Shown in pieces: positions 44,029 to 64,000 of a stretch of 64,000 nt of DNA. The stretch spans positions 372,001 through 436,000 of the forward strand of contig NZ_CP038452.1 of assembly GCF_004684245.1 (NCBI RefSeq). The letters run 5' to 3'. The position numbers and the translations under genes are program-made. This DNA is from Thermus caldilimi. Its GTDB lineage: Bacteria > Deinococcota > Deinococci > Deinococcales > Thermaceae. Below the pieces are notes generated by a model that was not told the DNA's origin, did no database searches, and worked only from the letters and a program-made list of their open reading frames with translations. Positions within the stretch are counted from its first letter, which is position 1. Each line of letters begins with the position of its first letter.

Positions 44029-45591
44029 ATGAAGCGATGGGCGGTTTGGTTCTTGGCGTTCCTGGGCTTGGCCGTGGCCCAGGACCGGACCCAGGTGCTG
44101 GTTTACGGCGGGGATTGGACGGACCTGATCACCCTGGATCCCCAGGTGGTCTACGAGTTCAGCGGGGTGATGATCGCCGATAACCTCTATGAAACCCTGG
44201 TGCGCTTTGAGGGGAACGACCTCTCCACCCTGCGCCCAGGGCTGGCGGAAAGCTGGAAGGTGGAGCGGGGCACCAGCGACTGGATCCTCACCTTCAAGCT
44301 TCGCAAGGGGAGCCGGTTCTCCACCGGACGGGAGGTCACAGCCAAGGACGTGGTCTTTAGCTTTGAACGGGCTTTAGCCCTTAAGGGGCCCGGCTCGTTC
44401 CTGTTCACCGAGATCGCCCAGCTCAAGCCGGGGGCGACCAAGGCCCTGGACCCCTACACGGTGGAGGTGCGCATCCCCAAGACCGCTTCGCCACAGTCCT
44501 TCCTCTCCATCCTTACCTTTACCCTGGGGGGCATTGTGGACTCGGAGGAGGCCCAGAAAAACGCTAAGGGGAACGATTACGGCAAGGATTTCCTCACCAA
44601 CAACTCCGCCGGGTCCGGCCCTTACCGCCTGGTGCGCTGGGACCGGGGAAACCAGGTGATCCTCGAGGCCAACCCCTACGCCCGCATCAAGCCCAAGGTC
44701 CAGCGGGTGGTTCTGCGCTACATCCAGGAGCCCGCGGTTCTCCGCACGGCCTTGGAGTCCGGGGAGATCGACATCGCCGAGGGCCTCACCCCGGAGGGTT
44801 TGCGGGCCATCGCCAACAACCCCCGCTTCAAGGTGGTCCGGGCGGAAACCCTGCGCCTTCAGTACCTGGGCATGAACATGAAGCCAGGAAGCCCCTTCGC
44901 TAACCCGAAGGTGCGGGAGGCGGTGCGCTATGCGGTGAACCAGGATGAGCTCATTCAGGGTCTCCTCCAAGGCAATGCCGTGAAGATCCAGACCTTCATC
45001 CCCAAGGGCCTTCTGGGATATAACCCTATCGCTCCCTACACCTATGACCCAGCGCGGGCGAGGAAGCTTCTGGCGGAGGCGGGTTACCCCCAGGGCCTGG
45101 AGTTTGAACTCCTTACCAGCACCGGGATCTGCGGCGGTGGGGTACCTTGCCCGGATGTGGCCGCCAAGCTGCAGGCCGACATGGCCAGGGCAGGCCTGAA
45201 GGCCAGGATCCGCGCCATTGCCAATGCTGAAGTGCTCAACATCTACCGGGCCCAGAACCATCAGATGGTCCTGGCCGGTTGGAGCCCGGACTTCCCCGAT
45301 CCCGACGGCAACGCCACCCCCTGGGCGGACTATGGGGCCCGCTCCTTGGCCTGGCGCAACAGCTACAACGACGAGGTGGCGGCCAAGCTGGCCCGGCAAG
45401 CGGCCCTCGAGGCAGACCCCACCAAGCGCAAGGCCCTGTACAAGGTGCTCACGGAAAAGGTCCTGCGGGAGGGCCCCTACGTGGTCCTCTACCAGCCTGC
45501 CTTGCCCATCGGCCTTTCGGCCAAGGTGGAGGGATTTGTGAAGAACCCCATGATGTCCGTACCCCTCTGGCAGGTGAGCAAGCAACCCTAA
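44029..45591 (+). CDS. Dipeptide/oligopeptide ABC transporter substrate-binding protein (second set)
   Basis: A 520-residue SBP_bac_5 protein with a signal peptide ending AVAQD. LITLDPQVVYEFSGVMIADN, LRKGSRFSTGREVTAKDVVF and REAVRYAVNQDELIQGLLQG are family motifs. A CGGGVPC stretch near residue 375 could hold a disulfide. The ATG at 44029 has AAGGAGG; an upstream start adds seven residues without support. It is the first gene of an SBP-DppB-DppC unit. Confidence 0.93.
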   Translation: MKRWAVWFLAFLGLAVAQDRTQVLVYGGDWTDLITLDPQVVYEFSGVMIADNLYETLVRFEGNDLSTLRPGLAESWKVERGTSDWILTFKLRKGSRFSTGREVTAKDVVFSFERALALKGPGSFLFTEIAQLKPGATKALDPYTVEVRIPKTASPQSFLSILTFTLGGIVDSEEAQKNAKGNDYGKDFLTNNSAGSGPYRLVRWDRGNQVILEANPYARIKPKVQRVVLRYIQEPAVLRTALESGEIDIAEGLTPEGLRAIANNPRFKVVRAETLRLQYLGMNMKPGSPFANPKVREAVRYAVNQDELIQGLLQGNAVKIQTFIPKGLLGYNPIAPYTYDPARARKLLAEAGYPQGLEFELLTSTGICGGGVPCPDVAAKLQADMARAGLKARIRAIANAEVLNIYRAQNHQMVLAGWSPDFPDPDGNATPWADYGARSLAWRNSYNDEVAAKLARQAALEADPTKRKALYKVLTEKVLREGPYVVLYQPALPIGLSAKVEGFVKNPMMSVPLWQVSKQP

Positions 45592-45634: not shown

Positions 45635-45641
45635 TTCTGCT

Positions 45642-46649
45642 ATGGGCGCTTACATCCTGAGGCGGCTTTTCATGGTGGTCTTCGTGGGGGTGGGCATCAC
45701 CTTCATCACCTTCTTCATCGCCCAGGTGATCCCCATAGATCCGGCGGCAGCGGCTTTGGGCGAGAATGCCAGGGAGGAGCAGATCCGTGAGTTCCGGGAG
45801 CGCTACGGCCTGGACAAGCCCCTGCTGGTTCAGTATGGCATCTATCTGCAACGGCTTTTGCAGCTGGACCTAGGGCGCTCCCTGCGCACGGGGCGCCCTG
45901 TGGCCGAGGACCTCCGGGAGTTTTTCCCCGCCACCTTGGAGCTGGCCCTGGCCGCCTTTTGGGTGGCTATCCTCCTGGGTATACCCGCCGGGGTGTGGGC
46001 GGCCTTAAGGCAGAACCGGGTGCCGGACCTCCTGGTACGGCTTATGGCCCTTCTCCTCGGCTCTACCCCCGTTTTTTTCCTGGCCATCCTCCTTCTGGAT
46101 CTCCTGCACCGTAGGCTTGGGGTTTTGCCGGGTCCAGGAAGACTGGATCCCTACCTCATCCCTCCTCCGCCGGTTACGGGCATGGTGACCGTGGACGCCC
46201 TCCTGGCCCGTGACTTCGCAGCCTTTCAGGATGCCCTGGCCCACCTTTTCCTGCCGGCCTTCGTCCTGGGCTCCGCCTCGGCCGCCTTGCTGGCCCGCAT
46301 GGTGCGGGCGGCCATGCTGGAGGTGCTTTCCCAGGACTATGTGCGTACCGCCTGGGCTAAGGGGCTTTCTGAGCGCCAGGTGGTGCTCCGCCACGCCTTG
46401 AAAAACGCTGCCCTGCCCGTTCTCACCCTTCTGGGCGGGCTCATGGGTGGGCTTTTGTCGGGAGCGGTGCTCACGGAAACCATCTTTTCCTGGCCCGGCC
46501 TAGGCCGTTACGTGACCCAGTCGGCCACCAGCCTAGACTTTCCTGCGGTTATGGGGGTGACCCTCCTGGTAGGGGTCATCTACTCGCTGCTGAACCTGGT
46601 GGTGGACCTCCTTTACGCTCTTCTGGACCCGAGGATCCGGTATGCGTAA
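45642..46649 (+). CDS. Dipeptide ABC transporter permease (DppB type, second set)
   Basis: A 335-residue permease with six membrane segments. The ATG at 45642 gives MGAYILRRLFMVVFVGVGIT. RYGLDKPLLVQYGIYLQRLL and DLGRSLRTGRPVAEDLREF are typical periplasmic-loop motifs, YVRTAWAKGLSERQVVLRHA is the EAA loop and DLLYALLDPRIRYA the end. It overlaps the next permease by 8 bp. Confidence 0.93.
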   Translation: MGAYILRRLFMVVFVGVGITFITFFIAQVIPIDPAAAALGENAREEQIREFRERYGLDKPLLVQYGIYLQRLLQLDLGRSLRTGRPVAEDLREFFPATLELALAAFWVAILLGIPAGVWAALRQNRVPDLLVRLMALLLGSTPVFFLAILLLDLLHRRLGVLPGPGRLDPYLIPPPPVTGMVTVDALLARDFAAFQDALAHLFLPAFVLGSASAALLARMVRAAMLEVLSQDYVRTAWAKGLSERQVVLRHALKNAALPVLTLLGGLMGGLLSGAVLTETIFSWPGLGRYVTQSATSLDFPAVMGVTLLVGVIYSLLNLVVDLLYALLDPRIRYA

Positions 46650-47466
46650 GTTCCTGCGCCGGTTTTTCCGCAACCCTGGGGCCGTTTTGGGCCTCGCCTT
46701 GCTGATTCTTCTCATTCTTGTGGCCCTTTTGGGACCCATGGTGGCCGGGGATCCTTTGGAACAGAACCTGCTGGAGCGGTTAAAGCCCCCAGGTCCTGGG
46801 CATCCCCTGGGCACCGACCAGCTTGGGCGGGATGTCTGGGCCCGGGTGGTTCATGGGACCAGGATTAGCCTTGGGGTGGGCTTCGGGGTGGTCCTTCTGG
46901 CCAGTTTTTTGGGCGTGAGCGTGGGCCTCTTGGCGGGCGGGCTTGGCGGGGTGTGGGACAACCTCCTCATGCGCCTCACCGACATCTTCTTTGCCTTTCC
47001 CTCCCTGATTCTGGCCATGGCCATCGCCGCCGCCTTGGGCCCGAACCTGACCAACACCGTCATCGCTGTGGCCCTGGTTACCTGGCCCATCTACGCCAGG
47101 TTGGTGCGGGCCCAGGTGCTGGCCTTGCGGGAGCGGGAGTTCGTGGAGGCAGCCAGGGCCTTGGGGGCAGGCCAAGGCCGGATTCTTTTCCGACACCTCC
47201 TTCCCAATGCCCTTACCCCCGTGCTGGTGCAGGCCAGCTACGAGGTGGGGGCCGCCATTCTGACCGCTGCGGGACTTTCCTTTATCGGCTTTGGCGCCCA
47301 GCCCCCCACCCCGGAGTGGGGGGCCATGGTGGCGGAAACCCGCAACTACATGGCCGAGGCTCCCTGGGCGGCCACAGCCCCGGCGGTGGGGATTCTGCTC
47401 ACGGTTTTGGCCTTTAACCTCCTGGGGGATGGGCTTAGGGATGTGCTGGACCCCAGGGGACACTAG
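46642..47466 (+). CDS. Dipeptide ABC transporter permease (DppC type, second set)
   Basis: A 274-residue permease. HPLGTDQLGRDVWARVVHGT is the DppC signature. FVEAARALGAGQGRILFRHL is the EAA loop. GGDGLRD-like FNLLGDGLRDVLDPR ends it. No ATPase genes follow, so this importer must share DppD/DppF-type ATPases encoded elsewhere. Its end overlaps nagA by 4 bp, tail to tail. Confidence 0.93.
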   Translation: MRKFLRRFFRNPGAVLGLALLILLILVALLGPMVAGDPLEQNLLERLKPPGPGHPLGTDQLGRDVWARVVHGTRISLGVGFGVVLLASFLGVSVGLLAGGLGGVWDNLLMRLTDIFFAFPSLILAMAIAAALGPNLTNTVIAVALVTWPIYARLVRAQVLALREREFVEAARALGAGQGRILFRHLLPNALTPVLVQASYEVGAAILTAAGLSFIGFGAQPPTPEWGAMVAETRNYMAEAPWAATAPAVGILLTVLAFNLLGDGLRDVLDPRGH

Positions 47467-48530
47467 GCCAGCTGTTCCCCTTCCAGGTACACCTCCAGCA
47501 CCCTTAGGGCCTTGTCCAGCACCACGAGATCCGCCCGCTTCCCCAAGGCGATCTCCCCCCGGTCCGAAAGGCCCAGGTACCGGGCCGGGTACAGGGATAG
47601 CCGCTTGGCCGCCTCTTCCAAGGGCACGCCCCAGGCCACCAGGTTCCTTAAGGCCCGGTCCAGGGTAAGGGTGCTCCCCGCCAGGGACTCCCCCAGCCAC
47701 ACCCCCTCCTTTCGCTTCTCCACCCGATGGGCCCCCAGGGGATAGGTGCCCTCCGGCATCCCCGCCGCGGCCACGGCGTCGCTCACAAAGTACAGCCCGG
47801 GAATGGTCTTCAAAGCCAGCCGGATGGCGGCCGGGTGCACATGCAGGCCATCGGGGATGATCTCGGCCCATTCCCCCCGTTCCAGGGCTAGGCCCACCAC
47901 CCCCGGGGCCCGGTGGTGCAGGCCGGTCATGGCGTTATAGAGGTGGGTGAAGCCCACCGCCCCCGCCTCCAGGGCGGATAGGGCCTCCTCGTAGCGGGCT
48001 TCCGTGTGCCCGAGTTGGACCCGGATGCCCTTTTCCGCTAGGAAGCGGATGAGTTCTAGGGCCCCGGGAAGCTCGGGGGCCAGGGTAATGACCCGCACGG
48101 GAGCCAGGGAGAGAAGATGGCTGGCTATTTCCCGGTCCGGGGGAAGGGGGAAACGGGGCTGGGCTCCCAGGCGGTTTGGGCTGATGAAAGGACCCTCCAG
48201 GTGAACGCCCAGAAGGGCCTTTCCCCAAGGGCCTTCCATGGCCGCCTGCGCTCCTTTGAGGGCTCTTTCCAGGTCGGCCAGGGGAGCAGTGACGGTGGTG
48301 GCGAGGAGGCCTGTGGTGCCGTGCTGGAGGTGGAAGCGCAAGGTGGCTTCGACTCCCTCCTGGCCCTCCATCACCTCCCGTCCGCCTCCCCCGTGCACGT
48401 GGAGGTCCAGGAAGCCCGGGAGGATGTAAGGGCCCTCCACGGGAGCCTCCTCTATGGCCTCTATGCGCTCGCCGAAGTGGAGCCTGCCCCGTACGAAGCC
48501 TTGGGGAGTCAGGATGGAGCCTGTTAGCAC
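47463..48530 (-). CDS. nagA: N-acetylglucosamine-6-phosphate deacetylase
   Basis: A 355-residue amidohydrolase. GFLDLHVHGGGG is the HxH metal motif, GVHLEGPFISPNRLGAQ holds the metal-binding Glu, QLGHTEARYEEA and THLYNAMTGLHHRAPG the further ligands and FVSDAVAAAGMPEG the catalytic Asp. It deacetylates GlcNAc-6-phosphate, the product of MurQ. The GTG at 48530 has AAGGAGG immediately upstream, after the anmK stop. An upstream start only reads back into anmK. Confidence 0.94.
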   Translation of the reverse strand: MLTGSILTPQGFVRGRLHFGERIEAIEEAPVEGPYILPGFLDLHVHGGGGREVMEGQEGVEATLRFHLQHGTTGLLATTVTAPLADLERALKGAQAAMEGPWGKALLGVHLEGPFISPNRLGAQPRFPLPPDREIASHLLSLAPVRVITLAPELPGALELIRFLAEKGIRVQLGHTEARYEEALSALEAGAVGFTHLYNAMTGLHHRAPGVVGLALERGEWAEIIPDGLHVHPAAIRLALKTIPGLYFVSDAVAAAGMPEGTYPLGAHRVEKRKEGVWLGESLAGSTLTLDRALRNLVAWGVPLEEAAKRLSLYPARYLGLSDRGEIALGKRADLVVLDKALRVLEVYLEGEQLA

Positions 48531-48540
48531 AACCGCCTCC

Positions 48541-49581
48541 TTATCCGGGTTCCACCCGTTGCCCGGCCCTAAGGTCCCGGCCACCGGTGGCCCGGCCTAG
48601 CACATTCACCTCACCTATGGCGTGGAGGTAGCCCAATAGGGCGAAGGCCAGGGCTTCCCGCACCTTGGGGTTTTCCATCACGGATACGGGGAGATGTTGG
48701 GAAAGAAGCGCCACCAAAACCCGGTTTCTCGCTCCACCCCCGGCCAGGAGGACCTGGTCCACCTGACCCACAAAGCGCCGGTAAGCCTCGAGGATGCTCC
48801 GGGCGGTGAGTTCCAAGAGGCTACGGAGAAGGCGGGCGGGATCCTGGGGCAAGGGCGAGAGGTGCTCAAGCCGCCAGACCTCCCGGCCCGTGGTCTTGGG
48901 TGGGGGAGCCTGGAAGTAGGGATGGGAAAGCCAGGTCTTAAGGGCCTCCTCATCGGGCTTGGCTTTCTCCGCCAGGGCCGTGGCTTCTTCCCAGGTGAGC
49001 CCCAGGATACCAGCAGCCTCATCAAAAAGGCAGACCCCAGGCCCGGTATCAAAGGCCAGCAGGGAGCTGGGATCCTTTCCGTGGAAATAGGTTAGGTTGG
49101 AGATTCCCCCGAGGTTGTGAACGGCCTTGCGCTTTCCCGCCTCCCCGTAAAGAAGGAGGTCCGGATAGGCCACCAGGGGAGCCCCCTGGCCTCCTGCGGC
49201 CAGGTCCATGCTCCGGAAGCCGTAGACCACCGGCACCTCGAGGCCCAGGGCCAGGTGGCTGGGTTCCCCAAGTTGGAAGGTGGCCCTGGGCGGCTCATGC
49301 CAGATGGTCTGGCCCGAAAGGGCCACCAGCTCAGCACTTCCCCTGAAGGGGAACGCAGCCTCCAGATAGAACCGCCCCAGGTCGTGGTGGAGGAGGGCGA
49401 TCTCCCGGGTGTCCGCGTGGCGCATGGCCCGGAGTACCCGCATCCGCAGCTCCTCCGGGTAGGCCACCTCCCGATGGGCCAGGACCCGGTGAGCCACCTC
49501 CGGAGGGGAGCCTGTGAACTCCGCCAGGACCAGGTCCACCCCGTCGGCGCTGGTTCCCGACATAAGGCCCAGTACCCTCAT
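48541..49581 (-). CDS. anmK: Anhydro-N-acetylmuramic acid kinase
   Basis: A 346-residue kinase that opens and phosphorylates 1,6-anhydro-MurNAc to MurNAc-6-phosphate. LGLMSGTSADGVDLVL is the ATP motif. GFRSMDLAAGGQGAPLV contains the catalytic Asp, and NLGGISNLTYF and PKTTGREVWRLEHL are conserved. The usual DTGPGN motif reads DTGPGV, a small change. ATGA overlap with gntR. Its presence shows that anhydro-muropeptides made by lytic transglycosylases are recovered. Confidence 0.94.
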   Translation of the reverse strand: MRVLGLMSGTSADGVDLVLAEFTGSPPEVAHRVLAHREVAYPEELRMRVLRAMRHADTREIALLHHDLGRFYLEAAFPFRGSAELVALSGQTIWHEPPRATFQLGEPSHLALGLEVPVVYGFRSMDLAAGGQGAPLVAYPDLLLYGEAGKRKAVHNLGGISNLTYFHGKDPSSLLAFDTGPGVCLFDEAAGILGLTWEEATALAEKAKPDEEALKTWLSHPYFQAPPPKTTGREVWRLEHLSPLPQDPARLLRSLLELTARSILEAYRRFVGQVDQVLLAGGGARNRVLVALLSQHLPVSVMENPKVREALAFALLGYLHAIGEVNVLGRATGGRDLRAGQRVEPG

Positions 49582-50255
49582 GAGAGCTCCACCAAAAGCT
49601 CGTACCGGTCCGCCCGGTACCAGCTCTTCACCCGTTCTACGGGCCTTCCGTCCTGCAGATAGCTTATCCGCTCCAGGTGAAGGAGGGGGCTTCCCGGCTC
49701 CACCCCAAGCAGCCTGGCCTCTTCCCGGGCGGCCACGGCCCGGAGGCGTTGCAGGGCGCGCACGGGCCTCAAGCCCTTGGCCTCGAGGGCCTGGTAGAGG
49801 GAACCTGGGGGGACCTCATCCAGAGCCCAGGCGGGCAGGGTGGCCCGTTCCAGGGCCATGGGCTCTCCGTCCGCAAGCCTAAGGCGCACTAGGCGGAGCA
49901 CCTCTTCCCCCGGGGAGAGCCCCAGGGCCATGGCCTCCTCTGGGGTGGCAGGGCCTTTCTCCACGCCCAGGATCCTGGTGCTGGGCTTCATACCCAGGGC
50001 CTCCATTTCCTCGCTGAAACCCCTGAGCCGGGTGCGGAAGGTGGCCCTTTTGGCCACAAAGGTGCCGCTTCCTTGCCGGCGGACCACCAAGCCTTCCTCC
50101 TCCAGAAGGTCCAAGGCCTTGCGCACGCTATCCCGGGATACCCCGAAGGCCTCGGACAAGGCCCGTTCCGGGGGGAGGGCGTCCTGGAAGTTGCCCTGAA
50201 GGATGCCCTCCCTGAGCCGTCGGGCCAGTTCCAGGTAAAGGGGGCCGTGGGCCAT
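49578..50255 (-). CDS. GntR/HutC-family transcriptional regulator
   Basis: A 225-residue regulator. The N-terminal winged HTH has LPPERALSEAFGVSRDSVRK and ends GLVVRRQGSGTFVA. The C-terminal UTRA domain (about 85-220) binds a small ligand, often an amino-sugar phosphate. The ATG is at 50253-50255. It is co-transcribed with anmK and nagA and divergent from the recycling operon, so a NagR/DasR-like role sensing GlcNAc-6-P or MurNAc-6-P is likely (inference). A tandem CTACCA repeat lies in the divergent gap. Confidence 0.88.
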   Translation of the reverse strand: MAHGPLYLELARRLREGILQGNFQDALPPERALSEAFGVSRDSVRKALDLLEEEGLVVRRQGSGTFVAKRATFRTRLRGFSEEMEALGMKPSTRILGVEKGPATPEEAMALGLSPGEEVLRLVRLRLADGEPMALERATLPAWALDEVPPGSLYQALEAKGLRPVRALQRLRAVAAREEARLLGVEPGSPLLHLERISYLQDGRPVERVKSWYRADRYELLVELS

Positions 50256-50264
50256 GGCGATATT

Positions 50265-50299
50265 CTACCACTTGCCTACCAATGGCAGGCCGTTATACA
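50265..50299. promoter_or_regulatory. Tandem operator-like repeat and near-leaderless promoter of the recycling operon
   Basis: CTACCA occurs at 50265-50270 and again at 50276-50281, exactly 11 bp apart. TTGCCT (50272-50277) and TATACA (50294-50299), 16 bp apart, would start transcription near 50306, only a few bases before the ATG at 50309. The repeats overlap the -35, which fits repression by the adjacent GntR protein. Confidence 0.5.
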
Positions 50300-50308
50300 C
50301 TTGGGGCC

Positions 50309-51286
50309 ATGCGGGCCAGGGCCCTTTTGGAGGAGGCGGTGGCCAGGGGTGTGGTTCCTGGGGCAGCCCTTGGGATAGTCCATGCGGATGGCCGTAAGGA
50401 GGTCGTCCACCTGGGGTTGGCCCAAAGGATACCCGAACCGGTTCCCCTGGAGGAGGGTTTCTACTTTGACCTGGCGAGCCTTACCAAACCGCTTTTCACC
50501 TTGCGGGAGGTGCTGAGGGCGGTGGAGGAGGGCCTTTTGGATCTGGATGACCCCCTCTCCCAGCACCTCCCCGAGATGCTCTGGCTTCAGGACCATCCCC
50601 TTAAGGGGGTAAGCGTGCGGGCTCTTTTGGCCCATACAGCGGGCCTCCCCGCCTGGGAGGCTTTGTACACCTGGGGGGAAGGGGAGGTTTTAAAGGCCCG
50701 GGTGCTCCAGCACCCCTGGCCCTTGGGCGAACCTCAGTACTCGGATATCGGCTACATTCTCCTGGGCCTTCTCCTGGAACGCCTAAGGGGTAAGCCCCTT
50801 GGGGCGTTCCCTTTACCCCCTGGCCTTAGCTTCTCCCCGCCTCCGGAGCGGAGCGTGGCCACGGAGCTTTGCCCCTGGAGGAAGCGGGTGCTCCGGGGAG
50901 AGGTGCATGATGAAAACGCCTTTGCCCTTGGGGGGGCGGCCGGGCATGCAGGGCTTTTCGGCACCCTGGAGGGCGTTCTGGACCAGCTTGCGGCTATCCT
51001 GGGGGGCACCTGGCTTTCCCGGGCAGCCCTGGAGGAAATGCAGAGGCCCCACGGGGAAAGGCTTTTGGGTTGGGAGAGGAAGAGGCCTGGCTGGCAAGGG
51101 GGGAGCCTGGCTTCGGAAAAGGCTTTCGGCCACACGGGCTTCACCGGGGTGGGGGTGTGGGTGGACCCGGAGCGGGGGTACGCCTGGGCTCTTTTGACCA
51201 ACGCCGTGCACCCGACCCGGCACCGGTCCTCCCTGGCCCCCCTGCGCCGGGCGGTGGGAAATGCCCTGGCTGCGGAGGTGGTATGA
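50309..51286 (+). CDS. Beta-lactamase-fold serine hydrolase
   Basis: A 325-residue protein of the class C beta-lactamase/esterase/PBP group. The nucleophile motif SLTK (SxxK) lies near residue 57, YSD near 150 corresponds to YxN, and HTG (GHTGFTG) near 290 replaces KTG. LLAHTAGLPAW is the typical post-SxxK block. No signal peptide is evident, so it is probably cytoplasmic. It overlaps murQ and opens the recycling operon. It may act on peptide stems or as an esterase. The ATG at 50309 is chosen over 50282 by promoter position. Confidence 0.85.
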   Translation: MRARALLEEAVARGVVPGAALGIVHADGRKEVVHLGLAQRIPEPVPLEEGFYFDLASLTKPLFTLREVLRAVEEGLLDLDDPLSQHLPEMLWLQDHPLKGVSVRALLAHTAGLPAWEALYTWGEGEVLKARVLQHPWPLGEPQYSDIGYILLGLLLERLRGKPLGAFPLPPGLSFSPPPERSVATELCPWRKRVLRGEVHDENAFALGGAAGHAGLFGTLEGVLDQLAAILGGTWLSRAALEEMQRPHGERLLGWERKRPGWQGGSLASEKAFGHTGFTGVGVWVDPERGYAWALLTNAVHPTRHRSSLAPLRRAVGNALAAEVV

Positions 51287-52143
51287 CGGAAGGCGTGGCC
51301 CAGCGCTACCGGGACCTGGACCTCTGGCCCGCAGGGGAGGTTCTCGAGGCCCTTTACGAGGCCCAGCTCCGGGCCGTGGCCGCCCTTAAGGAGGCCCTTC
51401 CTGCCCTGGAGAAAGCCGCCGGGGCCGCGGTGGAGCGTCTACGGGCAGGGGGCTACCTGGCCTACGCCGGGGCAGGGACCAGCGGGCGGCTGGCGGTGCT
51501 GGATGGGGTGGAGCTCCTGCCCACCTTTGGCTTCAGCCGGGTGCGCTTCCTCTTGGCCGGTGGGGAAAGGGCCTTTTCCGAGGCGGTAGAGGGCGCGGAG
51601 GACGACCTCGAGGGGGGGCTAACCCTGGGAAGGAGTGTGGCTCCCCAGGATGTCCTCCTGGCGGTGGCGGCCAGCGGCCAGACTCCCTTTACCCTCGGGG
51701 TACTGCGGGGGGCCAAGGAACAGGGAGCCCTGACCGTGGCCCTGGCCAACAATCCCGGAACTCCCCTCCTTCTGGAGGCGGACCATCCCATCCTTCTCAA
51801 CACCGGGCCCGAGCCCATCGCCGGGAGCACCCGCCTGGGGGCAGGCACGGCCCAGAAGGTGGCCCTAAACCTTTTTTCCACCTTGGTGATGGTGCGTTTG
51901 GGCCGGGTTTATGGGAACCGTATGGCTCGCATGCGGGTGCAAAACGCCAAGCTCCGGACCCGGGCCGCGGAGATGGTGAAGGAAATGGCGGGGGTTTCGG
52001 GGGAGGAAGCGAAGAGGCTTCTGGAAGTCTACCGGGACCCCGCCTTGGCGGCCTTGGTGGCCTTGGGCCTGGGGGCGGAGGAAGCCTTGGCCCTCCTGGA
52101 GGAAAAGGGGGTCAGGGGGGCTTTGGTGGAGGTAAGGAGGTGA
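51283..52143 (+). CDS. murQ: N-acetylmuramic acid 6-phosphate etherase
   Basis: A 286-residue SIS-domain lyase that removes D-lactate from MurNAc-6-phosphate to give GlcNAc-6-phosphate. YAGAGTSGRLAVLDGVELLP is the sugar-phosphate motif with one catalytic Glu, and the second lies in AVEGAEDD. ASGQTPFTLGVLRGA and NRMARMRVQNAKLRTRA complete the family pattern. It is slightly shorter than the 298-residue E. coli protein. ATGA and GTGA overlaps join it to its neighbours. It links anmK output to nagA input. Confidence 0.95.
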   Translation: MTEGVAQRYRDLDLWPAGEVLEALYEAQLRAVAALKEALPALEKAAGAAVERLRAGGYLAYAGAGTSGRLAVLDGVELLPTFGFSRVRFLLAGGERAFSEAVEGAEDDLEGGLTLGRSVAPQDVLLAVAASGQTPFTLGVLRGAKEQGALTVALANNPGTPLLLEADHPILLNTGPEPIAGSTRLGAGTAQKVALNLFSTLVMVRLGRVYGNRMARMRVQNAKLRTRAAEMVKEMAGVSGEEAKRLLEVYRDPALAALVALGLGAEEALALLEEKGVRGALVEVRR

Positions 52144-53654
52144 GGCTTTTGGCCATCCTGGCGGGAATGGGCATGGCGGCGGCCCAGGCGGGAAACTTTC
52201 TCATCGTGAGCTTCAAGGGGGAAGAGGTGCCGGTGGCCCTTCTCAAGGAGATCCGTCCCGCCGGGGTCATCCTTTACCCCTCCAACCTCCGCCGGGATCC
52301 CCAGGGGGTGGTGGCCCGTCTCAGGGCCTTGGATCCCAAGCTTCTTCTCCTGGTGGACCAGGAGGGGGGACCCTTTACGTCCTACCGGGAGGGGGTGGTG
52401 CGCTTCCCCTCGGCCATGGCCCTTTCCGCCAGCGGGGATGAGGGCCTGGTGGAGCGGGTGGGCTGGGCCCTGGGGTGCCAGGTGCGGCGGCTTGGGGCGG
52501 ATGTGAACCTGGCGCCGGTTCTGGACGTGAACACCAACCCCAACAACCCCATCATCGGCCTTCGCTCCTTCGGCGCCGACCCCGAGCGGGTGGCCCGCAT
52601 GGGCCTGGCCTTTGCCCGGGGGGTTTTGCGCTCCGGGGCGAAGCCCGTGGGCAAGCACTTCCCCGGGCATGGGGACACGGGGGTGGACTCCCACCTGGAC
52701 CTGCCCCGGGTGGATAAGCCCAAGGAGGCCCTGGAGGGGGCGGAGCTCCTTCCCTTCCGCCGCTATGTGGCCGCGGGGATGCCGGCCCTCATGACCGCCC
52801 ACATCCTCTTTCCCGCCTTGGATCCCAAATACCCCGCCACCCTTTCGGCCAAAATCCTCACAGGCTTGCTCCGGAGGGAGATGGGCTTTACCGGGGCCAT
52901 CCTTACCGATGACATGGCTATGGGGGCCATCAAGCGCCACTACGGGGCGGGGGAGGCGGCGGTTCTAGCCGTGAAGGCCGGGGCTGATTTGCTCCTGCTG
53001 GAACCCGATGAGGCGGCCATCCGGGAGGTGCACGCCCGGCTCTCCAAGGCCCTGGGCCAGGAGATTCCCCTTTCCCGGGCAGAGGAGGCCAGAAGGCGGG
53101 CTCAGGGCCTTAAGGCAGGCCAGGGGGAATGCCCTTTCACCCCGAAGGAGGAGGAGGAGGCTTTGGCCCTCGAGGCGGCCCGGCGGGGCGTGGTGCACCG
53201 CTTTGGCCCCCTGCCCATACCCGGTCAGGGAACCTTGGTCTTGGGCCTGAGGATCTCCGACCGCTACGGAGCGGAGCCCACCCTGGCGGACCTTGCCCCC
53301 CAGTACCTTCCCGGAAGCCGGGGGCTCATCCTTTCGGAGGATCCCACCCCGGTGGAGATCCAGAAGGCCTTGGCGGAGGCCAGGAAGGCGGAGCGCCTGG
53401 TGGCCTCCACCTACCGCTGGCTTGGCGGTTTCAAGGAGGGGCAAAGGACCTTGGTGAAGGAGCTCCTGGCCCTGGGCAAACCCCTATACCTGGTGGCCTT
53501 GGGCAACCCCGACGACCTTCGCTTCCTTCCAGGGAGGCCCACGGGCTATCTGGCTACCCACGGCTACCGCGCGGTCCAGGTCCGGGCCGCGTTGGAGGCC
53601 CTCGCAGGGGTGTATGCCCCTACGGGGCAATGGGTCTTTGGAGGTGAACCATGA
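52140..53654 (+). CDS. nagZ: Exported family 3 beta-N-acetylhexosaminidase (NagZ-like)
   Basis: A 504-residue GH3 enzyme. Residues 1-18 look like a signal peptide (LLAILAGMGMAAAQAG). The barrel has LLLVDQEGGPF, GKHFPGHGDTGVDSH with the catalytic His/Asp loop, and LTDDMAMGAI with the nucleophile Asp. Residues about 340-504 form an extra C-terminal domain, as in Gram-positive NagZ. It would cut GlcNAc from muropeptides outside the cytoplasm, unlike the cytosolic enterobacterial enzyme. The GTG at 52140 overlaps the murQ stop, with GGAGGTAAGGAG before it. Confidence 0.92.
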   Translation: MRLLAILAGMGMAAAQAGNFLIVSFKGEEVPVALLKEIRPAGVILYPSNLRRDPQGVVARLRALDPKLLLLVDQEGGPFTSYREGVVRFPSAMALSASGDEGLVERVGWALGCQVRRLGADVNLAPVLDVNTNPNNPIIGLRSFGADPERVARMGLAFARGVLRSGAKPVGKHFPGHGDTGVDSHLDLPRVDKPKEALEGAELLPFRRYVAAGMPALMTAHILFPALDPKYPATLSAKILTGLLRREMGFTGAILTDDMAMGAIKRHYGAGEAAVLAVKAGADLLLLEPDEAAIREVHARLSKALGQEIPLSRAEEARRRAQGLKAGQGECPFTPKEEEEALALEAARRGVVHRFGPLPIPGQGTLVLGLRISDRYGAEPTLADLAPQYLPGSRGLILSEDPTPVEIQKALAEARKAERLVASTYRWLGGFKEGQRTLVKELLALGKPLYLVALGNPDDLRFLPGRPTGYLATHGYRAVQVRAALEALAGVYAPTGQWVFGGEP

Positions 53655-54925
53655 GAAGGTGGGTTGTGGCTGTTTTGGCGGTGCTCCTAGGGCTTGCTTC
53701 TGCCCAGAAGCTGGTCCTGGCCAGCTGGGGGAGCCAGGAGGAGATCAAGGCATACCAGGAGGTGCTTAAGGTCTTCCAGGAGAGGAACCCGGGTATCCAG
53801 GTGGAGTACATCAACATCCCCTCCGGGGAGTACCTGGCCAAGATCACCGCCATGATGGCGGCCGGTACCCCGCCGGATGTCTTCTTCCTCAACAACATAG
53901 ACTTCCCGGGGATGGCCTCGAGAGGCGTGCTGGCTCCCCTGGACGCCTTTATCCAGCGGGACAAGTACCCCACCGCCGATATCTTCCCGGGCATCCTCAA
54001 GGCCTTCCAGTGGGAGGGGAAGCAATATGGCCTGCCCCGGGATGTGTCCAACCTGGTGGTCTTCTATAACCGCACCCTCCTCCGGAAGGCGGGCCTGCCC
54101 GATCCCAAGCCCGACTGGACCTGGGAGGATTTCCTCCGCTACGCCAAGGCCCTCACCGTGGAAAAGGATGGCAAAAGGGTCCAGTGGGGGGTTTCCTTCC
54201 AGACCTTCTACCTCTTCTGGGAACCCTGGGTCTGGAGTGCGGGCGGGCGGTTTTATGCCCCTGACCACAGCCGGTTCCTGCTGAATAGCCCGGCGTCCCT
54301 GGAGGGCTTGCAGTTTTATCTGGACCTCCGCTACAAGCACCACGTGGCCCCCACTCCCGAGGAGGCCCAGGACCGCGGGGCCTTCACCATGTTCCTGAAC
54401 GGACAGACGGGGATGATCGTGGACGGGCGCTGGCGGGTACCCACCCTTAAGGCCCGGGCCAAGTTCGACTTCGACGTGGTGCCCTTTCCCCGGGGCAAGG
54501 CAGGAAGCATCGTGGACATAGACGGCTCCGGCTGGGTGATGGCGGCCGGTTCCAGGAACCCGGAGGCCGCTTGGAAGCTCCTTTCCTTCCTGGCTGGCCC
54601 TGAGGCCAGCCGCATCTTCACCAGGACCGGGCTCATCATCCCCGCCCGGGGGGTAGATGTGAAGAATGTGGACCGCAGCATCCAAAGCCTCAAGGACTTC
54701 TTCGTGCCCCCGCCTCCCAAGAACCAGCAATACTTCCTCACGGTAAACCGCACGGCAAGGCCCACGGAAACCTTCGAGCGCTGGAACGAGGCCCTGCAAC
54801 TCATCAACAAGGCCTTGGAACCCGTGTGGCAGGGTAAGGCGGAGCTGAAGGCGGCCCTGGACGGCGTGGCCCCCCAGGTGCAGAAGATTCTGGACGAGGT
54901 CCAGGCGGAGCGCAAGAAGCGCTAG
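53651..54925 (+). CDS. Sugar ABC transporter substrate-binding protein
   Basis: A 424-residue MalE/UgpB-type protein with a signal peptide ending ASAQ. QVEYINIPSGEYLAKITAMMAAG, then TPPDVFFLNNIDFPGMASRG, are typical of family 1 sugar binders. ATGA overlap with nagZ. The context indicates that it captures amino sugars or small muropeptide saccharides released by NagZ. The ATPase is not encoded here, so a shared MsmK/MalK-type subunit is expected. Confidence 0.92.
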   Translation: MRRWVVAVLAVLLGLASAQKLVLASWGSQEEIKAYQEVLKVFQERNPGIQVEYINIPSGEYLAKITAMMAAGTPPDVFFLNNIDFPGMASRGVLAPLDAFIQRDKYPTADIFPGILKAFQWEGKQYGLPRDVSNLVVFYNRTLLRKAGLPDPKPDWTWEDFLRYAKALTVEKDGKRVQWGVSFQTFYLFWEPWVWSAGGRFYAPDHSRFLLNSPASLEGLQFYLDLRYKHHVAPTPEEAQDRGAFTMFLNGQTGMIVDGRWRVPTLKARAKFDFDVVPFPRGKAGSIVDIDGSGWVMAAGSRNPEAAWKLLSFLAGPEASRIFTRTGLIIPARGVDVKNVDRSIQSLKDFFVPPPPKNQQYFLTVNRTARPTETFERWNEALQLINKALEPVWQGKAELKAALDGVAPQVQKILDEVQAERKKR

Positions 54926-54947: not shown

Positions 54948-55910
54948 ATGCGTGTCTACTACCGATTCCCCCTCCTCTTCCTCCTGCCCTCCTTGGTGGG
55001 CTTCCTGGCCTTCAACCTGGGGCCCATCCTCACCAGCCTCCTCCTTTCCTTCGTCGCCTACGATGGGTTAAGACCCCTTGGCCTGGCCACCTTCCGGGAG
55101 AGCTGGGTGGGCTTGGAGAACTACCGCCAGCTCCTCGAGGACCCCGTCTTCCACAAGGCTTTCTTCAACACCCTTTTCTACGTGGCGGTGGCGGTGCCCT
55201 TGGAGATCGTGTTGGCCTTGCTCCTGGCTTTGGGCTTGAACCGCCCTTGGCCCGGGGTGCGGTTCATCCGCACCCTCTACCTCCTGCCCACGGTGACCAG
55301 CGTGGTGGCGGTGGGCCTCCTTTGGCGCTGGATCCTGAACCCCACCGTGGGGCCAGTGAACCTCTTCCTGCGCTGGGCGGGGGAGAGGATGGAGGGTGTC
55401 TATGGCCTTTTGGGGTTAACCCCTCCCTCGTGGGTGGCGTGGCTGGCCCGGGAGGGACCCGGATGGCTTTCCGATCCAGCCTGGGCCATGTGGGGGGTGA
55501 TCCTGGCCTCGGTGTGGGCGGGGGTAGGGTTAAGGATGCTGATCTTCCTGGCGGGACTGCAGAACATCAACAAGGAATACCTGGAGGCGGCCAGCCTGGA
55601 CGGGGCCAACAACCTGCAGCGCTTCTTCTACGTGGTTTTGCCCCTCCTTTCCCCCACGGTGTTTCTGAACACCCTTCTCGCCATGATCGGCGGTTTCCAG
55701 GTGTTCGGCCTGGTGTACACCATGACCGGGGGAGGGCCCTTGGATTCCACCAACGTGCTGATGCTTTACCTGTACCGCAAGGCCTTCGGCGTCTTTCCCT
55801 TCGAGATGGGGTATGCTTCGGCCATCGCCTGGGTCCTCTTCCTCATCCTGTTTGCCCTCACCTACCTGCAGTGGACCCTGCGCAAGCGGTGGGTGGTGGA
55901 GGAAGCATGA
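54948..55910 (+). CDS. Sugar ABC transporter permease (MalF type)
   Basis: A 320-residue permease with about six membrane segments. EYLEAASLDGANNLQRFFYV is the EAA motif, and FQVFGLVYTMTGGGPLDSTN is the conserved region before the last helix. An ATG 22 bp after the binding protein has GGAGG upstream. An insertion at about 135-185 between helices is longer than in most MalF relatives. Confidence 0.93.
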   Translation: MRVYYRFPLLFLLPSLVGFLAFNLGPILTSLLLSFVAYDGLRPLGLATFRESWVGLENYRQLLEDPVFHKAFFNTLFYVAVAVPLEIVLALLLALGLNRPWPGVRFIRTLYLLPTVTSVVAVGLLWRWILNPTVGPVNLFLRWAGERMEGVYGLLGLTPPSWVAWLAREGPGWLSDPAWAMWGVILASVWAGVGLRMLIFLAGLQNINKEYLEAASLDGANNLQRFFYVVLPLLSPTVFLNTLLAMIGGFQVFGLVYTMTGGGPLDSTNVLMLYLYRKAFGVFPFEMGYASAIAWVLFLILFALTYLQWTLRKRWVVEEA

Positions 55911-56734
55911 GGCTTTTGGGGAAGCTCTGGGATTCCCTCGTCTACCTGGTCCTCCTGGTCGGGGGGGTGAGCATGCTGGTGCCCTTCTTCTGGATGATCT
56001 CCACCAGCCTGAAGGCGCCGGGGGCGGTCTTTGACCTCCCTGTGGAGGTCTGGCCCAAGGAGCTCCACTGGGAAAACTACCAGCGGGTCCTCACCAGCGT
56101 GCCCTTCGGCCGCTGGTACCTGAACTCCTTGGTGGTGGCCTTGGGCCTCACTTTCCTGAACCTGACCAGCGGGGCCATGGCGGGTTATGCCTTCGCCCGC
56201 TTCCGTTTTAGGGGACAGGGGGCCTTGTTCCTCCTCTTCCTCGCCACCCTGATGATCCCTGTGCACGTGCTCATCATCCCCCTTTTCATCCTCATGCGGA
56301 ACCTGGGCTGGGTGGACACCTACTACGCCCTTATTCTTCCCGGCCTCTTCGATGCCTTCGCCATCTTCCTCATGCGTCAACACTTCCTGCACCTGCCCAG
56401 GGAGCTGGAGGAGGCGGCCATCATGGACGGGGCTACTCCCTGGCAGGTGTACTGGAAGGTGGCCCTGCCCCTGGCAGCCCCCGCCTTGGCCACCTTGGGT
56501 ACCTTCACCTTTTTGGCGGGCTGGAACAGCTTCCTCTGGCCCCTTATCGTCACCAACTCCTTGGAGATGCGCCCCCTAACCGTGGGCTTGGCGGTCTTCC
56601 AGGGGCAGTTTTCCACGGAGTGGACGGTACTCATGGCCGGGCTTACCCTGGGCACCATTCCGCCCATCCTGGTCTTTCTCCTGGCCCAGCGCTACTTCAT
56701 CCAGGGCCTTACCCTGGGAAGCCTGAAGGGGTAG
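55907..56734 (+). CDS. Sugar ABC transporter permease (MalG type)
   Basis: A 275-residue permease. FFWMISTSLKAPGAVF and LEEAAIMDGATPWQVYWKVA (EAA loop) are typical, as is the ending AQRYFIQGLTLGSLKG. The ATG at 55907 overlaps the previous stop. The longer frame upstream is read-through of the MalF-type gene and is not coding. Confidence 0.94.
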   Translation: MRLLGKLWDSLVYLVLLVGGVSMLVPFFWMISTSLKAPGAVFDLPVEVWPKELHWENYQRVLTSVPFGRWYLNSLVVALGLTFLNLTSGAMAGYAFARFRFRGQGALFLLFLATLMIPVHVLIIPLFILMRNLGWVDTYYALILPGLFDAFAIFLMRQHFLHLPRELEEAAIMDGATPWQVYWKVALPLAAPALATLGTFTFLAGWNSFLWPLIVTNSLEMRPLTVGLAVFQGQFSTEWTVLMAGLTLGTIPPILVFLLAQRYFIQGLTLGSLKG

Positions 56735-56735: not shown

Positions 56736-57899
56736 ATGCTGGATCCAACCTTTCAAAGAGCCTTGCTGGAAGCCCTGGATCGGTATCCCACGCCCTTTTA
56801 CGCCTACGACTGGGGGCGGGTCCGGGCCCAGCTGGCGCGCCTGAGGGAGGCCTTCCCCTTTGCCCGTTTTTTCTACGCACTGAAGGCCAACCCCCGTCTT
56901 GGGCTTCTTCGGCGCCTCAGGGCCCTTGGCCTCGGGGCCGAGGCGGTTTCCCTGGGGGAGGTGCTCCGGGCCTACCGGTCGGGCTTTGGCCCGGACCAGG
57001 TGGTGTGGAACGGCCCGGTTAAGACCCCGGAGGCCCTTACCACCCTGAAGGGGCGGGAACCCCTTGTGGTCCTGGACTCCGAAGGGGATGTGGGGCGGGT
57101 GGCCCGGTACCTTCCCGGGGCCAGGGTGTTGTTGCGGGTGAACCCGGACCTCCCGGTGAACACCCACGGGCACCTGGCCACGGGCAGGGGGGAAAGCCAG
57201 TTTGGGGTGTTGCCGGAGGCGGTGCCGGGGCTGGTGAGAACTATCCGGGAAAAGGGGTTAACCTTTTTGGGCCTCCATCTGCACCTGGGTTCGGCCTTGA
57301 GCCGGGTGGAGGATTTCCTGGAAGGCTACGGGGTCCTCGATGCTCTTTATCCCCAGGTGGGGCCGGTGGCGGTCTTGAACCTGGGAGGGGGCTTCGGCTT
57401 GGACCTCCCCCTGGAGGCTCTCCAAGAACCCCTGAAGAGCCTGGCCCGGCTTTATGGGGCCCAGGTCTGGCTGGAGCCGGGAAGGTACCTGGTGGCCGAG
57501 GCAGGGGTCCTGGTGTCCAGGGTGGTGGGCCTGAAGGAAACCCGCAGGCGGTATGTGCTCCTGGATGCCGGGATGACCAGTCTCATCCGGCCTGCCCTTT
57601 ATGGGGCCCGCCACCCCATCCTGCCCCTTTACCCTCGAGAAGGCCGGGAGGAAGGGATTTTTGACCTGGCGGGTCCCGCCTGCGAGGCAGGCGACATCCT
57701 GGCCCGGGAGGTGCGCCTGCCCGTGCCCCAGGAGGGGGAAGCCTTGGCTATCCTCGAGGCTGGAGCCTACGGGGCCAGCATGAGCCTTACCTACCTGGAC
57801 ACTCCAAGGCCCTTGGAGCTCCTTTGGACCGGGGCGGGGTGGGAGGTGCTTCGGACACGGGAGCCCTGGGAGCGGCTTTTGGAGGGGGAGGAGGCTTAG
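56736..57899 (+). CDS. LysA-like PLP-dependent (diaminopimelate) decarboxylase
   Basis: A 387-residue fold-type III decarboxylase. The PLP Lys is K50 (FYALKANP), HLHLGS lies at 181-186, GGGFG at 217-221, LEPGRYLVAEAG near 247 and the active-site CEAGD at 316-320. DAGMTSLIRPALYGARHP is a strong LysA match. It starts 1 bp after the sugar permease stop, so it belongs to the recycling operon. Thermus makes lysine by the aminoadipate route and has ornithine in its peptidoglycan, so a role other than lysine synthesis is likely, perhaps on a diamino acid from recycled stems (inference). Confidence 0.85.
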   Translation: MLDPTFQRALLEALDRYPTPFYAYDWGRVRAQLARLREAFPFARFFYALKANPRLGLLRRLRALGLGAEAVSLGEVLRAYRSGFGPDQVVWNGPVKTPEALTTLKGREPLVVLDSEGDVGRVARYLPGARVLLRVNPDLPVNTHGHLATGRGESQFGVLPEAVPGLVRTIREKGLTFLGLHLHLGSALSRVEDFLEGYGVLDALYPQVGPVAVLNLGGGFGLDLPLEALQEPLKSLARLYGAQVWLEPGRYLVAEAGVLVSRVVGLKETRRRYVLLDAGMTSLIRPALYGARHPILPLYPREGREEGIFDLAGPACEAGDILAREVRLPVPQEGEALAILEAGAYGASMSLTYLDTPRPLELLWTGAGWEVLRTREPWERLLEGEEA

Positions 57900-59744: not shown

Positions 59745-60397
59745 GGCTTCCCCAGGCGGTAGCCCCCGGGTACCCGTTCCACCACCCAGGGGGCGAGGCT
59801 TTGACGGAGCTTTTGCACGTACACCCGGAGCACCGCATCCGTTTCGGCTCCCGGGAAGAGGCGCTCGAGGAGTTCCTCGCGGCTAAAAGTTCTGTCGGGG
59901 TGTTGCGCCAGAAGCTCCAGGAGGGCGAAGGCCTTGGGGGAAAGGGCCACCTCCCTCCCACCCAGGATCACCCGCCTGGCCACCAGGTCCACCTCGAGGG
60001 AACCCCTTCGCAGGATACGCCCCTTGAAGTCGGCATGCCTTCGGGCGAGGGCCTTGATTCGGGCCAGGAGCTCCTCCAGGTGGAAGGGTTTTACCAGGTA
60101 GTCGTCCCCGCCCAATTCTAGGCCATGGATTCGGTCCTCGAGGGCATCCCTGGCGGTGAGGAATAGGATGCCCCCGCGGAAGCCCCCTTGGCGCAGGGCC
60201 TCGGCGAAGCGGAAGCCCGCGTCCTCCCCCTCGGGCAGCATGATGTCCAGGATGAGGACATCGGGTTCCCCCTCGGCCAAGAGGCTCCAGGCTTCCTCCA
60301 GGTTCCTGGCCCCGAGGGCCTCGTACCGCTCCCGCCGCAAGAGGGCCAGGATGGGCTCCAGAATGCCTGGCTCGTCTTCCACCACCAAGATCCTCAT
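59741..60397 (-). CDS. OmpR/PhoB-family response regulator
   Basis: A 218-residue regulator. The receiver has EDEPG, the phospho-accepting Asp in VLILDIMLPEG, FLTARD and YLVKPF. The C-terminal winged helix (about 125-215) includes LSPKAFALLELLAQHPDRTF and the wing VERVPGGYRLGKP. The ATG at 60397 gives the standard MRILVVEDEPG; a longer frame is unsupported. OmpR-type proteins bind tandem repeats about 10-11 bp apart, which is exactly what lies upstream of two genes here (62187 and 63715). Confidence 0.95.
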   Translation of the reverse strand: MRILVVEDEPGILEPILALLRRERYEALGARNLEEAWSLLAEGEPDVLILDIMLPEGEDAGFRFAEALRQGGFRGGILFLTARDALEDRIHGLELGGDDYLVKPFHLEELLARIKALARRHADFKGRILRRGSLEVDLVARRVILGGREVALSPKAFALLELLAQHPDRTFSREELLERLFPGAETDAVLRVYVQKLRQSLAPWVVERVPGGYRLGKP

Positions 60398-60834
60398 GGC
60401 TTCCGGGCATGAAGGGCTAAGGCTCCAAGAAGCCCAAGCCCACTCAAGGCTAGGGGGGCTAGGGGTGGGGGAGAGCCTTCCTTTTCCCCTTCCCTCAAAG
60501 GCCCGGGGTAGGCGGGATATTCCCACCCCTCCTCGTCCACCAGCCGGACCACGGAGGGGGAAGAGGCCTCCAGGGCTTCCTGCATGTGCTCTACCAGGCC
60601 CAAAAGCCCCATGCCCCCCACCAGGAGGAGAAGCCCCGTGGCCCAAACCCTTCCTCTTGGGAACCCGAGGCCGAGGAGGATGGCCCCTGCTCCCAGCCCG
60701 GCGGCCAAGGGTGCCAGGATGCGGATACCCTCCCTGTGGTCCATCAGAACCAGCTCCGCTAAGACGGTGAGGAAACCCAAGCCGGTGAAAAGGGCCACCA
60801 TATCGGGAAATCGCTTTTGCAGCACTTCGCCCAT
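60394..60834 (-). CDS. Small multi-pass membrane protein of unknown function
   Basis: A 146-residue protein with four predicted membrane helices (about 14-31, 38-57, 65-83 and 126-142) and one hydrophilic stretch (about 85-125) between helices 3 and 4. I do not recognise the family. ATGA overlap with the response regulator and 11 bp from the cytochrome gene. It may anchor or accept electrons from the cytochrome, but no haem motif is seen. Confidence 0.8.
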   Translation of the reverse strand: MGEVLQKRFPDMVALFTGLGFLTVLAELVLMDHREGIRILAPLAAGLGAGAILLGLGFPRGRVWATGLLLLVGGMGLLGLVEHMQEALEASSPSVVRLVDEEGWEYPAYPGPLREGEKEGSPPPLAPLALSGLGLLGALALHARKP

Positions 60835-62244: not shown

Positions 62245-63681
62245 CTAGCGGCCCTTAAGCTCCACCTTCTCTGCGGCGATGGTGGTTCCGGAAAGAGTCC
62301 CTTTTACCTCCACGCGGTCTCCGTTCTGCAAGAGGGTGAAGAAGTCCGCCCGGCTATAGGTTTGGTTGCGCCACTCAAAGCGGGTAGCCTCTGTGGTGGT
62401 CACGGTGTATCCCAGTAGCTGGAAGGTGTAACTGGTGGCATCCAGGTGGGAAACTGGGCCCTCCCACTCCTCCATCCCCTCGCCGTCCTGGTTGGTTTTC
62501 ACCTCCACCTTGACGGCATAGTAGCGCATGTCGGCATTGGTCCGGGTGGGGTCGTACTGCACCTCCACGTAGTCCCCCACCTGGATGTCGGCGAAGGCGA
62601 TGGGGCCGTCGGGGTCATCGCGTTTGAGGACGGTGGTGGCGTCCACGTAGAAGCCAAGGCTCCCCAGGGAGAAGGTATTGCCCTGGTGATCTATGGCGCT
62701 TACCGTTCCCTTGGCCTCCGCCCTGGCCGGGTAGCTCTTGGGGTACTTTACCTTCACCAGCTGGGCGTGGAAGAGGGTAGGGTCGTTGGCATCCACCTGG
62801 CCCTTGGCCTCCACGTAGGCCCCGTCAACCAAGGTGCCCACTACGTTGGCGGCGCTATAGTCCACGGTGTAGCCAAGGAGCTGGAAGGTTTTTTGGGTGG
62901 GATCCAGCCCGAGGATGGGTCCTTCCAGCTCCACCCGCCTCGAGGCTCCGAACTGGTTGTTCCCCGAGGTCTTGAACACCACCTTTGTAGCCTGAATGAG
63001 GGTACCGGAAAGGGTTCCCTTCACCTCCACCCACACCCCCTCCCTGGGGGTTCCCACCACATGGGCTTGGCCGTAGTCCACCGTGTAGCCGTTCAGGGTG
63101 AAGTGCTTGGCCGGCTCATCCAGGTTGGTGGCCCGGCCTTCCAGCTCCACCTCGTTGTTTCCCCTGGGGTGGCGTTCAATATAAGTGGCGAGGATGCCGC
63201 TTTCTGTAGCGGTTCCCTGGACCTCCACCACATCTCCTATTGCGAGATCGGAAAGGAGCAGGGTGCGGTAGGAACCCCCCACCTTTTCATAAATCCGGGT
63301 GTTGGCATCGGTGAGGACCTGTTGGCCAAGGACCGTGAGGGTTCCGGCGTTCACGTCCAGGGCAGCGATGGGGCCTTTGAGTTCTACCTGCACCTCGAGG
63401 CTCTGGAGGCGGAGGGTGTTTCCCTGGTCAGTGCCCTGAGCCACCACCACCATACCCGGCAGGACCGAGCCGCCATAGGGTTCCCCCTCCTTGGTCAGGG
63501 ATGTTCCTTGCAGGTCCAAGGGCTTGCCCAGAAGGGTGGGCTTGGTTTCCGTGCCCCCCACCACCCCCGCCACCTGGACTGCCTGGGGAATGGACCCCGA
63601 GGGGTTCATCTGGCAGGACGCCAGGATGGCTAGGCCCAGCGCCAGCCAGACCAGCCGCGAAAAGCGCACCTCCTTAGCCAT
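62245..63681 (-). CDS. Lipoprotein with repeated DUF5666 domains
   Basis: A 478-residue protein. The signal peptide ends in a lipobox LASC near residue 23, so the mature protein is a lipid-anchored surface or periplasmic protein. About five repeats of an OB-like beta unit follow: each has a xVELEGP-type strand, a xTFQLLGYTVDY strand and a GxxVEVKGTLSG turn (clearest near 180-235, 250-305, 320-380 and 410-470). These match DUF5666. It may bind a metal or small ligand; no enzyme motif is seen. The ATG at 63681 has GGAGGTGA. Confidence 0.85.
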   Translation of the reverse strand: MAKEVRFSRLVWLALGLAILASCQMNPSGSIPQAVQVAGVVGGTETKPTLLGKPLDLQGTSLTKEGEPYGGSVLPGMVVVAQGTDQGNTLRLQSLEVQVELKGPIAALDVNAGTLTVLGQQVLTDANTRIYEKVGGSYRTLLLSDLAIGDVVEVQGTATESGILATYIERHPRGNNEVELEGRATNLDEPAKHFTLNGYTVDYGQAHVVGTPREGVWVEVKGTLSGTLIQATKVVFKTSGNNQFGASRRVELEGPILGLDPTQKTFQLLGYTVDYSAANVVGTLVDGAYVEAKGQVDANDPTLFHAQLVKVKYPKSYPARAEAKGTVSAIDHQGNTFSLGSLGFYVDATTVLKRDDPDGPIAFADIQVGDYVEVQYDPTRTNADMRYYAVKVEVKTNQDGEGMEEWEGPVSHLDATSYTFQLLGYTVTTTEATRFEWRNQTYSRADFFTLLQNGDRVEVKGTLSGTTIAAEKVELKGR

Positions 63682-63756: not shown

Positions 63757-64000
63757 CTAGACCTTCAGAAGGCCAAAAAGAGGCCAGTGCTCCTTGATTA
63801 GCTCCGGGTGCCACTGGACCCCCAGGAAAAGGGGATGCCCATCCAGGGCTACCGCCTCCACCAGGCCGTCCGGGGCCAGGGCGATGGGCTTTAAGCCCTC
63901 TCCCAGGTCCTTGATCCCCTGGTGGTGGTAGGAGTTCACCCGGAAGCTAGGGGGGAAGAGGCGGGCGAGGGGGCTTTCGGCCACCAGCTTCATCCCGTGG
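63757..64000 (-). CDS. Class I glutamine amidotransferase (peptidase C26, PuuD-like), N-terminus cut by window edge
   Basis: The frame is open from the right edge to a stop at 63757. SFRVNSYHHQGIKDLGEGL carries the catalytic-His region and FLGVQWHPE the His-Glu of the triad, as in gamma-glutamyl-GABA hydrolases and related C26 enzymes. The nucleophile Cys lies beyond the window. The ATG at 63993 is internal (it follows HG in frame, as in the family pattern), so it is not the start. Confidence 0.85.
   Translation of the reverse strand, partial: HGMKLVAESPLARLFPPSFRVNSYHHQGIKDLGEGLKPIALAPDGLVEAVALDGHPLFLGVQWHPELIKEHWPLFGLLKV

Follow-up and report, generated by a model that had tools for sequence, protein, structure and literature searches.

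The usual diaminopimelate (DAP) decarboxylase and several systems of cell-wall recycling resemble, each in a different respect, the lysA-like locus of Thermus analysed here. First, the enzyme known as DapDC or LysA (EC 4.1.1.20, TIGR01048) shares with the present protein its fold, its catalytic residues, the arginines and glutamate at the DAP-distal site, and its clade. In contrast to the usual situation, dapB and dapF are missing here, wall-sugar salvage genes and a peptidase C26 gene adjoin lysA instead of DAP-pathway genes, and the protein bears E69 and L354, both specific to its clade, and has lost a short stretch at Y219 of the T. maritima enzyme. Second, a table published by Nishida and Nishiyama in 2012 (PMC3356886) already contains these orphan lysA genes: T. 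scotoductus, Meiothermus, Oceanithermus, Deinococcus and Truepera are listed with DapDC but with neither dapB nor dapL, and T. thermophilus has no DapDC gene. Their study gives no role, gene context or tree; the clade of vertical descent and the partner gene C26 described below are new. Third, the murQ-murR-murP-amiE-nagZ-ybbC cluster of B. subtilis (PMC5061867), like the locus studied here, groups MurQ, NagZ, a candidate beta-lactamase-like amidase and an uptake system, whereas in Thermus an ABC transporter stands for the PTS MurP, a GntR regulator for MurR, and lysA lies at the end. Finally, MpaA of E. coli and YkfABC of B. subtilis (PMC2954226) would share with our locus the logic of splitting an imported stem peptide to free DAP, MpaA and YkfC being the enzymes that release it from the murein tripeptide. 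MpaA is a metallocarboxypeptidase and YkfC an NlpC/P60 protein, whereas the candidate here belongs to C26 and is unrelated to both; moreover, the DAP is proposed to be converted further to lysine, in a cell without the DAP pathway.

Orphan lysA is widespread in Deinococcota and has no stated role in the open-licence literature searched; likewise, a search for a role of DapDC in peptidoglycan recycling returned nothing on point among open-licence papers. We propose, with a probability of roughly 0.6, that this LysA is a meso-DAP decarboxylase that salvages meso-DAP from foreign murein to L-lysine.

The lysA gene and its operon

The protein family, its active site and distal-site residues, its clade, the order of genes, the partner gene and the lack of dapB and dapF were all read directly from sequence, starting with the window, the whole 64,000-nucleotide stretch analysed here (Table 1). 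The lysA frame runs from an ATG at 56736 to a TAG at 57899 and encodes 387 amino acids without internal stop. As the preliminary description had stated, the decarboxylase is intact: K50, HLHLGS, CEAGD and DAGMTSLIRP are all found, and the catalytic residues are K50, H183, S186, E247, C316 and Y345, that is, the Lys, His, Ser, Cys and Tyr of fold-III PLP decarboxylases on the fold of that group. The protein matches PF02784 and PF00278 and scores 308.7 bits against the NCBIfam lysA equivalog TIGR01048, a narrow margin over the cut-off of 297.9, which four of its relatives also exceed. Its AlphaFold model (mean pLDDT 92.1) best matches DapDC of H. pylori, followed by those of A. aeolicus and other organisms, with D-ornithine/D-lysine decarboxylase, lysine decarboxylase and ODC lower in the list. 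lysA is a gene under purifying selection and not a chance open reading frame: where pairwise omega between Thermus sequences was computable it came to approximately 0.05-0.2, and 18 of the 27 Thermus genomes have an orthologue, in one case split in two frames.

Other identities were rejected. NspC (TIGR01047) gave 25.2 bits against a cut-off of 409 and the D-ornithine/D-lysine decarboxylase DokD (NF052544) 83.4 against 700, residues and tree also speaking against both; the score of LysA with the SpeA model was far under cut-off.

Table 1. Features of the lysA region, by position in the window
Feature	Position	Strand	Basis
Dpp/Opp-type peptide ABC solute-binding protein	44029..45591	+	homologue and BLAST
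Peptide ABC transporter permease, DppB type	45642..46649	+	homologue and BLAST
Peptide ABC transporter permease, DppC type	46642..47466	+	homologue and BLAST
NagA, GlcNAc-6-phosphate deacetylase	47463..48530	-	homologue and BLAST
AnmK, anhydro-MurNAc kinase family	48541..49581	-	homologue in L037 and BLAST
GntR/UTRA regulator, divergent from operon	49578..50255	-	profiles
Serine beta-lactamase-family hydrolase (PF00144), weakly PBP4B-like	50282..51286	+	profiles
MurQ, N-acetylmuramic acid 6-phosphate etherase	51280..52143	+	NF003915, 300 bits, cut-off 168
NagZ-like GH3 beta-N-acetylhexosaminidase, signal-like N-terminus	52140..53654	+	profiles
Sugar ABC transporter solute-binding protein	53651..54925	+	profiles
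Sugar ABC transporter permease 1	54948..55910	+	profiles
Sugar ABC transporter permease 2	55907..56734	+	profiles
LysA, meso-DAP decarboxylase orthologue	56736..57899	+	profile, tree, alignment, AlphaFold model
Peptidase C26 / PuuD-like gamma-glutamyl hydrolase, C-terminal part	63757..64000	-	usual lysA neighbour

lysA closes a run of seven plus-strand genes with overlaps, or gaps of no more than 22 bases, between neighbours; a single base separates the stop of the second permease from the lysA ATG. The hydrolase that opens this operon may be an amidase with an AmiE-like role, by analogy with the amiE-nagZ-murQ cluster of B. subtilis. Upstream, a peptide ABC transporter (44029-47466) precedes the divergent GntR/UTRA-AnmK-NagA set, and its binding protein is 88% identical to the counterpart that adjoins lysA in L040. 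The C26 gene continues past the end of the window (G000:C1:435757-436437). Between the lysA region and C26, positions 62245-63681 encode a secreted-looking protein of 478 amino acids with repeated similar units of about 75 residues. A small membrane-like protein is encoded at 60394-60834, and a relative in L040 sits between lysA and C26.

Substrate site, phylogeny and host background

In the DapDC of T. maritima, docking and mutagenesis of E315 assigned the distal carboxylate of DAP to R249 and R285 and the distal amino group to E315, a position held by Asp in ODCs (PMC8277567). The aligned residues of LysA, R250, R285 and E317, are invariant in our alignment, both in Deinococcota (43/43) and in the other DapDCs (31/31). 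LysA does not show the ODC pattern, in which the E317 site is Asp and the R285 site is not Arg. The two ODC-like sequences in the tree and alignment, both taken from Deinococcota genomes, do differ there, with E in place of R285 and D in place of E317. In a quick maximum-likelihood tree, with SH-aLRT as its sole support measure and few non-DapDC rows, the 43 Deinococcota sequences form a single clade (SH-aLRT 97) among DapDCs of other phyla, and the ODC-like and NspC sequences fall outside the DapDCs. On these grounds, meso-DAP is very probably the substrate of LysA.

Trueperaceae are the first to branch within the Deinococcota clade, as vertical descent predicts. The single clade suggests that, in contrast to the rest of the pathway, lysA dates back to an early stage of the phylum, and vertical inheritance without retention of the rest of the DAP pathway is the likely account. 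The genome G059 (L049/L062) bears the name of a different genus in the family, yet its lysA groups inside Thermus, which reflects either transfer or a label problem.

The preliminary description had suggested as substrate a diamino acid released from recycled stem peptides of the host's wall, for example ornithine, which would give putrescine and thereby tie wall turnover to polyamines, and had named phylogeny against DapDC, ODC and NspC as a check. The tree and the invariant distal residues both tell against ornithine: DapDCs act on a D-centre, whereas the ornithine of the wall is L, and ornithine has no distal carboxylate, so that the arginines would have nothing to hold. SpeA is also present in the genome, and Thermus makes spermidine through aminopropylagmatine, a route that bypasses putrescine (PMC7857480). 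The association with MurQ and NagZ, the ornithine-type wall, the membership of gamma-glutamyl-polyamine hydrolases in the C26 family and the slight activity of wild-type T. maritima DapDC on D-ornithine (26.6 versus 675 mU/mg on meso-DAP; PMC8277567) would favour such a reaction, which we nevertheless consider very improbable.

The enzyme also differs from other DapDCs near the active site. D65 of T. maritima is replaced by E69 in 43/43 Deinococcota and N352 by L354 in 37/37 Deinococcota outside Trueperaceae, Y219 is lost by a short deletion, and D193 is a further clade-wide change at a conserved position. Given E69, L354 and the lost Y219, a modest shift of substrate may have occurred. These changes, D193 included, and the orphan state of lysA through most of the phylum would suit a DapDC-derived enzyme acting on another compound with a D-centre and a distal amino-carboxylate, such as a DAP derivative or meso-lanthionine. 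However, every catalytic and DAP-binding residue is kept and the equivalog cut-off is exceeded, which makes this reading improbable.

Neither dapB nor dapF had a match in this genome or in any Thermus searched, with positive control genomes, and LysA is therefore without these partners in its usual role as the last step of DAP biosynthesis. LysX of the alpha-aminoadipate (AAA) pathway is present, MurE has EEDHR in place of the DAP-type motif DNPR in all 27 Thermus, and the peptidoglycan of T. thermophilus contains L-Orn (PMC10836841). Taken together, these findings indicate a host that does not make DAP and, to current knowledge, does not build it into its wall. The premises of the preliminary description, namely lysine synthesis through alpha-aminoadipate with no DAP pathway expected and an ornithine-type wall, are thus borne out; so is its view that the role is probably not de novo lysine synthesis, as there is no DAP pathway and the operon contains wall-sugar genes. 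An unrecognised DAP route to lysine ending in LysA could draw on the few Deinococcota that carry dapB or dapF, and on the transferred DAP cluster of D. proteolyticus (PMC3356886). We give it hardly any credence in view of the searches just described, of LysX, and of the loss of lysA several times within Thermus. The locus also cautions against taking lysA alone as evidence of a DAP lysine pathway.

Gene neighbourhoods and the C26 partner

MurQ occurs in 9 of the 27 Thermus genomes, one copy being fragmentary, and its operon houses lysA in 6 of the 18 Thermus orthologues (the window, L033, L036, L037, L038 and L042). At L034 and L035 the MurQ operon is mostly gone and lysA is left, under purifying selection; ten Thermus genomes have lysA without a detected MurQ. 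With only six orthologues inside the MurQ operon and two beside its remains, we rejected the idea that this operon is what characterises the setting of lysA. Accordingly, the link to muropeptide genes drawn in the preliminary description stands for the wall-sugar operon of the window, but MurQ linkage is confined to some Thermus and the constant partner is C26.

Elsewhere in Thermus, lysA lies next to nagA (in several genomes) or to a peptide ABC transporter, or has the two of them beside it, and genes of both kinds also flank the locus of the window. In Meiothermus-type genomes C26 is the sole constant neighbour of lysA. Among the 50 Thermaceae and Marinithermaceae genomes with lysA, C26 is adjacent in 40 and lies on the same contig within 25 kb in 48. 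Cys109, His211 and Glu213 of the C26 protein are conserved; its best curated match is the gamma-Glu-GABA hydrolase PuuD, far below cut-off, and its nearest solved structures are of PuuD/SpuA type.

In another family, at L079, an aldehyde dehydrogenase gene adjoins lysA, and NagA, a sugar ABC transporter and a NagB-II-like isomerase are encoded nearby; this is a second, independent link of lysA to amino-sugar genes.

Such patterns bear on whether LysA might be a nutritional DapDC that uses free meso-DAP or DAP peptides with no tie to wall sugars, the shared operon being an accident of rearrangement. The restriction of the MurQ link to a subset of Thermus, the ten genomes without detected MurQ and the constancy of C26 alone in Meiothermus-type genomes are in line with this possibility. 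Yet nagA, peptide ABC or NagB-II/sugar ABC genes recur beside lysA in various arrangements, L079 included, and we hold an accidental association to be unlikely.

Proposed foreign-wall salvage and joint losses

The salvage reading proposed at the outset accommodates these observations as follows. Muropeptides of other bacteria, with meso-DAP in their stem peptides, would be degraded and imported through the products of the NagZ, amidase and sugar ABC genes and through the peptide ABC transporter encoded close by. Hydrolases of the cytoplasm, perhaps with the C26 gamma-glutamyl hydrolase among them, would release meso-DAP, and LysA would decarboxylate its D-centre to yield L-lysine and CO2; the wall sugars would be led through MurQ or AnmK and NagA to glucosamine-6-phosphate. 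We infer the substrate, the foreign source of DAP, the role of C26 and the direction of flow; we favour foreign DAP because it agrees with the substrate-site residues, the lack of a DAP pathway, the ornithine-type wall, the transporters and the pattern of loss. As lysine is already supplied by the AAA pathway, the gain from such salvage would be nutritional only.

Cleavage of the gamma-D-Glu-DAP bond would be required, and gene order and family chemistry make C26 the candidate hydrolase. If so, it might represent, after MpaA and YkfC, a third type of gamma-D-glutamyl-DAP hydrolase unrelated to the other two, forming with LysA and the peptide transporter a dedicated pathway from foreign wall to lysine in organisms with an ornithine wall, a tentative extension that we regard as possible rather than probable. 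Several points count against salvage: no S66 LD-carboxypeptidase was found in the genome, its two MR_MLE proteins are an OSB-synthase (L201) and an Ala-Glu epimerase candidate under cut-off (L202), and the active-site changes extend throughout the clade. Should DAP salvage be true, a cell of one wall chemistry would feed on another, and the C26 hydrolase that travels with lysA would gain a testable function.

LysA and C26 agree in presence or absence in 25 of the 27 Thermus genomes (17 with both, 8 with neither, and one discordant case of each kind; Fisher p 3.5e-5, a value that ignores kinship). On the MurE gene tree lysA changes seven times and C26 six times; about four independent pairs of changes agree in direction and none disagrees, which is not enough to reach 0.05. 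The two genes thus tend to be lost jointly in Thermus, a recurrent pattern in keeping with a dispensable role in nutrition.

Individual genomes display likely traces of decay. In G010 (C24:67918-69022; L020, L024) lysA lies in two frames and in G071 (C39:400063-400791) it is interrupted by stops; both are likely decaying copies, with assembly error as the alternative for G010, since G011, nearly identical there, has an open frame. In G001, a Thermus without lysA, C26 adjoins MurQ (C11:10610-12159); the NagZ-to-lysA block was likely deleted, because the sister genome G002 keeps these genes between MurQ and C26.
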